Position numbers and translations under genes: made by a program. Positions 55,504 to 59,456 of a stretch of 64,000 nucleotides of DNA are shown one piece after another. This stretch comes from Chloroflexota bacterium (lineage in GTDB: Bacteria > Chloroflexota > Anaerolineae > Aggregatilineales > Phototrophicaceae). Under the pieces are notes generated by a model that searched no databases, had not been told where the DNA came from, and saw nothing but the letters and a program-made list of their open reading frames with translations. The stretch lies in contig JAPPEU010000069.1 in the NCBI GenBank assembly GCA_028875245.1, positions 1 to 64,000 on the forward strand, in the 5' to 3' direction. Position 1 is the stretch's first letter. Each line of letters starts with the position of its first letter.

Positions 55504-57102
55504 TTATCCCTTGACCGCGCCGGCGGTGACGCCGCGGACGAAGTAACGCTGCAGGCTGAAGAAGACGATGAGGGGCACGACCATGGTGATGAAGGCGCCC
55601 GACGCCAGGATATCCCATTCGTTGGCATATTTACCGACGAGCTGGCGGATGCCGACTGTGAGCGGGAAGAGCTGCTGGTCGACCAGGAAGATCAGGGCGT
55701 TCATCAGATCGTTCCAGATCCAGACGAATTGAAAGATGCCCAAAGAGGCGATGGCGGGCATGGACAGCGGAATCACAATACGGAAGAACATGCCAAATTC
55801 GGAAGCGCCGTCGACGCGCGCCGCTTCGAAGAGCTCGCCCGGCAGATCGCGGAAGAAATTGTAGAGCAGGAAAATGGCGAAAGGCGTGCCATAGGAGGCG
55901 TGGGCGATCCAGATGCCGGGGAAGGTGCCGATCAAGCCGGCTGCGTTCAACATGCGCAGCACCGGGATCCAGGTGGTTTGCATAGGCACGATCAGCATAG
56001 CGATGGCCAGCAGGTAAAAGATGTTGCGGAAGGGCAGGTCCAGCCAGCTGAAAGCGTAAGCGGCCGTCGCCGCGATGACGATCGTCAAGAGTGTGCTGGG
56101 TACGGTGATGATAAAACTGTTCTTGAAGAAGTTGATGAATCCGGGCTCGGCCAGTTGCTCGCGCGTGAATACCTCCACGTAGTTTTCCAGCGTCAGCAGC
56201 GGATTTTGAACGCCCAATTCCATCTCTATGACACCGGCGAAATCAGCGGCGGCAGCGAACTCGAAGCGCCCATCAGCGCTGACGTGAAGCGCCCCGGCCA
56301 GCGGCAGCTGAATTGTCGCGCCCGCGTCGAAGGTTTCCAGCGGACCGCCGGCGCGTTCCATGGCGTATTGAATTGTGAAGGGCGGGTTCGCGACCGCGCC
56401 TCGGTCGATGGTCGCCTCGAATGAGCCGACGAAGCTCGCCCGCGGCTCGAAGATGTACCCCCCGTCGGCATTCACTATGATTTTGCCGGCGCGTGGCACG
56501 CGTTCCGCTTCTCCGATCTCCTCGATTTCCAGTTCGCCCTGAATGGATTCAAAGCCTTGAAGCTGAAATTCCAGGCTGAAGGGCGTTTCAGCGCTGTCGA
56601 CTTCGGTAATGAATGCGCCGTCATAAGCGGCTGCCGGCGCGAAATCATGGGTCGCGTCCGCGTGGATAATGACCGCGCCGACGCCGTCCAACGCGATGGG
56701 CTGGCCGAATGCCTCGACCTTGATGACGCCGCTGATTTGCTCAATGCGCACCCGGCTGATTGCAGCGGCCGGTATGCCTTCAACGGCGTCGGTCAGCAAA
56801 TTGCCGCTTGCCGTTTCGCCCGCGAAGACGGTGTTTTCACCGCTTTCGCCCGCTTCAACGACGGTGAGCTCCCAAGGCTGGTCGGTCACTGTGCGTTCTC
56901 CCCCCGCGACGGTCCACCAGCCGGAGGCGGAGATATCGCCGCGCGTGCGAAACGATGTGACAGCCAAGCCGACCGACGGCACGAGCCAGATGACCCCGAT
57001 GATCAGCAGCATGGCGTGTATGGGTCCGCGCCTTGTCAGGGTGATGAGCGCTTCGGTCCAGCTTTTGCCGCGCCGGTCGAGCTTGAGGGCTTGGGCGTCC
57101 AT
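55504..57102 (-). CDS. MalG-type sugar ABC permease with a large external insert
   Basis: A 532-residue permease, nearly twice the usual 280. TM1 is at about 29-49. The loop begins canonically (FRTRGDISASGWWT, 51-64) and ends canonically (LTLENYVEVF, 303-312), but about 240 residues lie between. They are beta-rich, with three units that share G-x-I-x-V-x-ADG-x-Y-x-F-x-P-x-A-x-F-x-G: residues 141-165 (HADATHDFAPAAAYDGAF), 206-231 (NADGGYIFEPRASFVGSF) and 270-294 (SADGRFEFAAAADFAGVI), like cadherin/VCBS-type repeats. The C-terminal half is a normal MalG with EAA loop EAARVDGAS (near 422) for the ATPase. AGGAG overlaps the upstream permease stop. Confidence 0.9.
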   Translation of the reverse strand: MDAQALKLDRRGKSWTEALITLTRRGPIHAMLLIIGVIWLVPSVGLAVTSFRTRGDISASGWWTVAGGERTVTDQPWELTVVEAGESGENTVFAGETASGNLLTDAVEGIPAAAISRVRIEQISGVIKVEAFGQPIALDGVGAVIIHADATHDFAPAAAYDGAFITEVDSAETPFSLEFQLQGFESIQGELEIEEIGEAERVPRAGKIIVNADGGYIFEPRASFVGSFEATIDRGAVANPPFTIQYAMERAGGPLETFDAGATIQLPLAGALHVSADGRFEFAAAADFAGVIEMELGVQNPLLTLENYVEVFTREQLAEPGFINFFKNSFIITVPSTLLTIVIAATAAYAFSWLDLPFRNIFYLLAIAMLIVPMQTTWIPVLRMLNAAGLIGTFPGIWIAHASYGTPFAIFLLYNFFRDLPGELFEAARVDGASEFGMFFRIVIPLSMPAIASLGIFQFVWIWNDLMNALIFLVDQQLFPLTVGIRQLVGKYANEWDILASGAFITMVVPLIVFFSLQRYFVRGVTAGAVKG

Positions 57103-57109
57103 GGCTAAT

Positions 57110-58015
57110 TCATAACTCCTGGCGGACGCGCCGCACCTGATAGATGATGAATGGCATGACCAAAATCAGGAGGATGACGGCGACGGCGCTGCCATAACCG
57201 GAGCGGTTGTTGTTGAAGGTCTCCCAGAATACGGTGTAGCCGATGATGCGGGTGGCGCCGCGGGGCGCGCCCTTTGTCATCACCAGAACGAGGTCGATCA
57301 TTTTCAGCGCGTTGATGATCATGGTGACGGCGATGAAAGTGACCGGGCCGCTGAGCATGGGCAGGGAGACGCGCCAGAACAGCTGCCAGGCATTGGCGCC
57401 GTCGATGCGGCCGGCCTCGTGAATCTCGGCGGGAACGGCTTTGTAGGCGGCCGACAGCACGACGACAGACAGCCCGGTGGAGATCCAGACGCCGGCGAAA
57501 ATCACCGCCAGGTTGGCGAATTCGACGCTGCCCAGGAAAGCGATCGGCTGAAAATCGGGGAAGAGGGCCCTCAGAAAGGCGTTGAGCGAGCCGAGATTGG
57601 AATCTTGATTGTAAAGCAGGCGAAAGATGACGGCGGCGGCGGTGGCGGAGATGGCCATCGGCATGAACAGAATGGATTTGATGATGGCTTCGTATTTGAC
57701 TTTGTCGGCCAGGACGGCGACGAGCAGCCCAATCAGCACAACCGCGGTTGGAAAAACAATGAGCCAGACGAAGCTGTTGACCAGCGCGCCGCTCAGCACG
57801 CCGTCTTCCCAGTTGAGGAAGAAGCGGTCTTCGGTCAGCAGAATGCGATAATTGTCCAGGCCGACGTATTCCTTGGCCGGGGTGGTGATGGTGCCGCGGG
57901 TGAAGCTCAGGACAATGGTGACGATGGTGGGGTAGACGAAGAAGAGCGACAGCGCGATGAGGGCCGGCGCGGCGAATAGCCAGGGAATCAGTTTGCTGAA
58001 TCTGCCAGTATGCAT
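57110..58015 (-). CDS. MalF/UgpA-type sugar ABC permease
   Basis: A 301-residue inner-membrane permease with six TM segments and the EAA loop EAGRIDGA (near 197) that contacts the ATPase. The opening LFAAPALIALSLFFVYPTI is typical of the UgpA/LacF branch for di- and oligosaccharides or glycerol-phosphates. It lies between the binding-protein and MalG-type genes. No ATPase gene is in the operon, as is common where a shared MsiK/UgpC ATPase serves many importers. A hairpin terminator separates it from the binding-protein gene. Confidence 0.93.
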   Translation of the reverse strand: MHTGRFSKLIPWLFAAPALIALSLFFVYPTIVTIVLSFTRGTITTPAKEYVGLDNYRILLTEDRFFLNWEDGVLSGALVNSFVWLIVFPTAVVLIGLLVAVLADKVKYEAIIKSILFMPMAISATAAAVIFRLLYNQDSNLGSLNAFLRALFPDFQPIAFLGSVEFANLAVIFAGVWISTGLSVVVLSAAYKAVPAEIHEAGRIDGANAWQLFWRVSLPMLSGPVTFIAVTMIINALKMIDLVLVMTKGAPRGATRIIGYTVFWETFNNNRSGYGSAVAVILLILVMPFIIYQVRRVRQEL

Positions 58016-58120: not shown

Positions 58121-59410
58121 CTATTCGCCGTAAGCGGTATCAGCCACATCCTCGATGAATTGGGCGACCTCTTGCACCGCGTCGGGGTTGGCGACCAGGT
58201 CTTGCAGGCCGGTGAACATGGCGTCGCCGCCGATGGCGCCCGGCGCCAGGTCGGAGCCGTCAAAGGCGACATGGTTGGCGTTGGCGACCATAGCCGCGGC
58301 GGTGCCGTCACAGGGCTCGGCGTAGACATCGGCGGAGACGTTGTAATTGGCTGAGAGCTGTGGTCCCGTTTCCTGGGTCGCGATCAATTCCTGCGCTTCG
58401 GCGCCGGCTATCCAATTCATCCATTCGCGCACTTCGGGCCGGTCGTTGAACATGATGAAGAAATTGCCGCCGAGAACGACCGAGTTGGCGTACATTTCGT
58501 TGATGGTCGGGAATTGGAAGAAGCCGAAATCATCGGGGCAGGTCTGACCCGGGAAGTTGGCTTCGGCGAAGTTGCGCACGAAACTGGCCAAGGGGTAAAT
58601 CCCGGCTTCGCCAGCCATGAACTTGTCGATGGCATCGATGAAACCGGTGGCCAGCGCGCCGTCCGAGCCGCCCCCCAGACGTGTATCGGTGGGCGATACC
58701 GCTTCGGCGAAGTGCTCCAGCGCGCTGATGACGGTGGGATCGGTCCACTCGACTTCATGCGTCACGAAGAGTTTGTGATACATCTCCGGACCGGCGATGT
58801 TGAGGTAGAGATTCTCGAAGAAGTCGGTCAGCGTCCAGCCATCCAAAGCGCCCAGCGACAGGGACGGTATGCCTTCTTCCGCCAGGATATCGAGATACTC
58901 GATGAACGCGTCCCAGGTTGCCGGCGCGTCTTCGCCGATATCCTCGAAGACATCGGTGCGGCGCCAAGCGGTGCTCTTGGAGCTGACGGCGCTGACGATA
59001 CCGTAGAGTTCACCGTCGACCGAGCCGAGGTCAATGAGCGCCTGCCCGTAATTTTCGGCGACGTATTCCATCGTCATGACCGGGTCGTCACCGCTGGTCA
59101 AGGGTATGATCAAGCCTTCGCGCGCCAATTCCGCCATCACGCCGGGGCGCGGCATGGCGGAAATATCGGGCGGGTTGCCGGCGCTTGCCATGATCTGCGG
59201 CAGCAGGTGGCAATCGCGGTCGACAATGTGCTCGACCTCGATGCCGGTCTGCTCGGTGAACACGGCGTTGGCGCCAGCGAAGCCAACGCCTTCAGCGCCG
59301 CCCCAACAAGCAACGATGGTGACTGTAGGGGCATCCTAGGCGATTAAGGTCGCCGGGATAAGCGACATTACGACAAGTACTAGAACCGTAAACAAAGCAA
59401 ACTTGCGCAT
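58121..59410 (-). CDS. Sugar ABC extracellular binding protein, interrupted by an in-frame TAG
   Basis: The real start is the ATG at 59410, preceded by AAAGGAG. It encodes a signal peptide MRKFALFTVLVLVVMSLIPA-TLIA, then a TAG (59336-59338) and, in the same frame, DAPTVTIVACWGGAEG and the rest of a family-1-type solute-binding protein (FTEQTGIEVEHIVD, NPPDISAMPRPG, WTLTDFFENLYLN). The stop lies exactly where cleavage (LIA-x-DAP) is expected, and one C-to-T change from CAG (Gln) would explain it. Without readthrough only internal starts (for example GTG 59263) give a leaderless product of 380 residues. Otherwise the gene is intact, about 429 codons in total. Confidence 0.85.
59336..59338 (-). 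other. In-frame amber codon in the binding-protein gene
   Basis: TAG at codon 25 from ATG 59410. Both sides remain in one frame, with no insertion or deletion. Other genes in the window end normally in TAG, so general TAG reassignment is ruled out. Confidence 0.85.
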
Positions 59411-59456
59411 GAGCTGGCTCCTTTCAAAAGCCTTGATGCGATAGGACTATTTTGGG

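Follow-up and report, generated by a model that had tools for sequence, protein, structure and literature searches.

Nonsense-codon pseudogenes whose orthologues are intact elsewhere are known from bacteria, and Sodalis glossinidius is a reported example (PMC3091646). The locus described here lies in a 64,000-nucleotide stretch of DNA (the window) from an uncultured Chloroflexota bacterium, and it resembles such cases in having a single disabling lesion and intact orthologues in relatives. It differs from the Sodalis-type cases in belonging to a genome of 4.2 Mb, with the comparison here made at one gene only. That genome is an 88-contig draft, 96% complete, and isolate names in its genus (RHO and COS, for example) suggest an association with sponges. 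A literature search on pseudogenes in sponge Chloroflexi found nothing specific. The other point of reference is the binding proteins of carbohydrate ABC importers (SBP_bac_1/SBP_bac_8). The window gene is like these in its family match, its signal peptide and its two adjoining permease genes, but its reading frame is cut at the first mature residue, and the ligand is not predictable at such a distance.

The gene lies on the minus strand. Its start codon, ATG 59410, is preceded by GAAAGGAGCCAGCTC, a Shine-Dalgarno context directly upstream, and after the in-frame TAG at 59338–59336 the same frame resumes as DAPTVTIVACWGG and continues for 404 codons up to a TAG at 58123–58121 (Table 1). An earlier note on this DNA had described this order, with a signal peptide, then TAG, then the mature frame, read from an ATG with a good ribosome site, and the order is confirmed. 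The same note had stated that the permeases remain, and both are indeed intact in the window. The downstream frame matches the solute-binding family SBP_bac_1 (E 1.2e-14, 55.4 bits against a cut-off of 26), and family membership is further indicated by the two adjoining BPD_transp_1 permeases. The nearest solved relatives are the chitin-oligosaccharide protein NagB2 (7eho) and AcbH (3oo6). The genome has one close copy of the gene; a second was looked for among its remaining binding proteins, the best of which are at most 36% identical to the protein under study. The additional residues of permease 2 follow its first membrane helix and precede the core, and they include a weak cadherin-like match at residues 203–230. 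Permease 2 is full-length in nearly all orthologues, and the extra region evolves faster than the core.

Table 1. Features of the interrupted binding-protein operon in the window.
Feature	Position	Strand	Basis or remark
Shine-Dalgarno GAAAGGAGC	59417..59425	-	ahead of ATG 59410; kept in orthologues
Signal-peptide ORF, 24 codons, MRKFALFTVLVLVVMSLIPATLIA, amber-terminated	59336..59410	-	aligned to orthologue signal peptides
In-frame TAG, codon 25, at +1 of the mature protein in place of conserved CAG/CAA (Gln)	59336..59338	-	orthologue alignment
Rest of CUT1-like sugar solute-binding protein gene, intact, 404 codons, natural stop TAG	58121..59335	-	open frame and Pfam match
ABC permease 1 (BPD_transp_1), intact	57110..58015	-	Pfam match, orthologue comparison
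ABC permease 2 (BPD_transp_1), intact, ~250 extra residues ahead of permease core	55504..57102	-	Pfam match

Which codon do relatives have at this site? A search of 34 genomes of the genus for close orthologues, defined by at least 85% identity, found one in 16, the window's own genome included. Orthologue N-termini read ...LLAQDAPKVTVVTCWGG..., and in the alignment (...LLA-QDAP...) the window stop occupies the conserved Gln just past the signal peptide. Glutamine is encoded here in 14 same-genus orthologues, by CAG in 13 and by CAA in one. The 13 complete orthologues account for 12 of the CAG codons and for the CAA (L021), and the frameshifted copy in G007 (L002/L020) also has CAG. Two distant orthologues likewise have CAA (Gln), and none of the aligned relatives has TAG, or a T at that base. 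With Gln in all aligned orthologues, the window codon is a private C-to-T change, from CAG to TAG, at the first mature residue. The earlier note had proposed just such a single change of CAG, and the comparison with close relatives that it had suggested, with CAG in 13 orthologues and CAA in one, upholds the proposal. That the amber codon falls at the cleavage site calls for no particular account, because 18 other codons of the window frame are also one transition from a stop, which makes 19 such places in total. A random nonsense transition would strike this one in about 1 of 19 cases, so its position is unremarkable.

How old is the lesion? Private changes were counted at bases where a single genome differs and at least 70% of the rest agree; by this measure the intact binding genes have 37 amino-acid-changing and 97 silent changes. 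The window copy has two amino-acid-changing and four silent ones, a ratio like that of the intact copies (p=0.54), and its dN/dS against the G026 orthologue is 0.084, like that of intact pairs. No relaxed selection or second lesion was seen in the window binding gene, either in the frame up to its natural stop or in the balance of private changes. Since that balance is like that of intact copies, the lesion is either very recent or a sequence error, and constraint on the copy lasted into the very recent past or, should the TAG be an error, continues today. These were two of the options listed in the earlier note, and the absence of relaxed selection speaks for both. The G007 copy has 18 amino-acid-changing and 11 silent private changes (p=0.0006 against intact copies) and looks like an older pseudogene. 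The window gene has the marks of a recent nonsense pseudogene, with a sense codon at the site in its orthologues and no accumulated further decay.

Taken together, these comparisons suggest that the TAG is probably a real and very recent nonsense mutation in the sole close copy of the gene, a pseudogene in the making that leaves the cell with no binding protein and a silent importer. The proposed sequence of events is as follows. First, a C-to-T change would have turned CAG into TAG in the binding-protein gene of a carbohydrate ABC importer, a gene without a second close copy in the genome. Second, translation from ATG 59410 would halt after the 24-residue signal peptide. Third, no binding protein would be made, and the importer would be silent though both permease genes persist. 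Fourth, the window lesion would be one of several independent breakages of a dispensable operon within the genus. The stop, the ancestral Gln, the other lesions and the intact permeases are observed directly; that the TAG is genuine and fixed, and that import has been lost, we infer. On the whole the case has the look of an ordinary, recent loss of a gene (or of a sequencing error) and not of a new way to read the code.

An error of sequencing or consensus, or a mixture of strains, is the less likely account, although it keeps an appreciable share of the probability; the population would then truly have CAG and the gene would work. Base-call or consensus errors in metagenome assemblies would likewise leave a lone C-to-T change and no further decay, and a copy without relaxed selection or a second lesion fits that account too, as does a draft genome of 88 contigs. 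In addition, the gene is mosaic, with 323 bases identical to those of G033 in an operon that is otherwise ~87% identical, and this could reflect mixed-strain assembly. However, no relative has a T at the base, so simple chimerism between known species does not yield the TAG. Moreover, the damaged binding-protein genes elsewhere in the genus carry different lesions, and the genes beside this one in the window operon show no damage.

The real nonsense mutation favored here would not be alone in the genus. The binding protein is independently broken in 2 of 15 close relatives. In G007 a +1 frameshift falls in a G run ~40 bases past the codon, with GGGGCGGC reading GGGGGGGGC, and the G033 gene has a 5' deletion that removes the ribosome site, the start and approximately the first 141 mature residues, so that it resumes at YLDILAEEGIP. 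Both of these lesions also come from MAGs, and MAG error is possible there. In G012 (L059), permease 2 is frameshifted near codon 221 and the binding protein is intact. At the cut-off used, the binding gene is unmatched in 13 of the 34 genomes and permease 1 in 14; permease 1 is intact in every genome with a match. This frequent loss or breakage of the operon fits an importer that may be dispensable. In G033, an inverted-repeat element (GTAGGGGCGGC...CGCCCCTAC, L060:2020-2110) separates the truncated binding gene from the gene upstream of it, and similar sequence is found upstream of the binding gene in L018, L026 and L030.

Trees of the binding protein and of the permeases conflict. The window permeases are nearest those of G006 (97% protein identity for permease 1), whereas the window binding protein is nearest those of G033, G026 and G007. 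Window positions 58224–58546, inside the binding gene, share 323 identical bases with G033 (L060), and permease 1 is ~87% identical. Among close orthologues, the window and G007 alone share an allele that carries three replacements near the N-terminus (TCWGG to ACWGG, GFNGVN to GFAGAN). These patterns suggest that the binding-protein gene has been recombining between species, with mixed-strain assembly as a rival source of the mosaic alleles. A broader reading, in which selection repeatedly inactivates the binding gene throughout the genus and its alleles recombine between species while the permeases are kept, is improbable. If it were true, the causes could include an exposed protein that serves as a phage receptor or a target of host immunity, or a different binding protein serving the permeases. 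Repeated loss of the binding protein with intact permeases and mosaic alleles could be traced in strain-resolved metagenomes.

Could the TAG be read through? A suppressor tRNA or recoding would place an amino acid at the stop, and the binding protein would be made and secreted; an intact downstream frame under purifying selection is consistent with this. However, RF1 is present above its curated cut-off, and the amber suppressor tRNA that the earlier note suggested looking for did not appear, since ARAGORN read a CUA anticodon in none of the 43 tRNA genes detected, although in a genome that is 96% complete one missed tRNA is possible. TAG terminates 8 of the 32 larger ORFs in the window, and it is the natural terminator of the binding gene both in the window and in 10 of the 14 orthologues whose end is seen. 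The in-frame TAG is conserved in no relative, and any recoding would need to act on a single codon of a single genome. Readthrough, which the earlier note had offered as an option, is contradicted by RF1, by the lack of a CUA tRNA and by the use of TAG as a normal stop; it was rejected as very improbable.

The earlier note had also raised a cytoplasmic product and a phase-variable switch, and both fare worse still. Restart at an internal GTG (59263) would give a binding protein without a signal peptide from a frame that is open for 380 codons. Yet no ribosome site precedes this GTG, nearly all orthologues have GTC, GTT, GTA, GCC or CTC at the codon, with GTG only in G031, and the product would miss the first 24 residues of the mature protein. 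Moreover, an importer cannot be served by a binding protein that stays in the cytoplasm. With no ribosome site and an unconserved codon, the internal start was rejected and is hardly credible. A phase-variable switch of the binding protein might be suspected from the G007 lesion in a nearby G run, but the window has no such run at the site (TTGGGGCGGC), and its lesion is a base substitution that leaves repeat number unchanged. No repeat tract or inversion was found at the window lesion, which lies in non-repetitive sequence; with no repeat basis, a switch is equally hard to credit. Readthrough, internal start and phase variation hold little probability even jointly. The case cautions that an in-frame amber codon in a striking position is no evidence of recoding; by itself, one recent nonsense lesion (or error) in a transporter gene of this uncultured bacterium matters little.

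In the ancestral context, GCCCAGGAT, the changed C is at the inner position of CCAGG. In E. coli lacI, 5-methylcytosines in that context are amber hotspots. A Dcm-type hotspot at this codon is speculation, and the idea was set aside because no link could be made between the genome's three C5-methylases and CCWGG, and because CCWGG shows no depletion in the window (ratio 1.20); a literature search on the idea found nothing. Two C5-cytosine methylase genes of the genome, at C31:125476-127305 and C50:18602-20010, each adjoin a Vsr-family gene, and the C31 methylase, the one compared with solved proteins in a PDB search, is nearest M.HhaI. GGCC is depleted in the window, with a ratio of 0.64.
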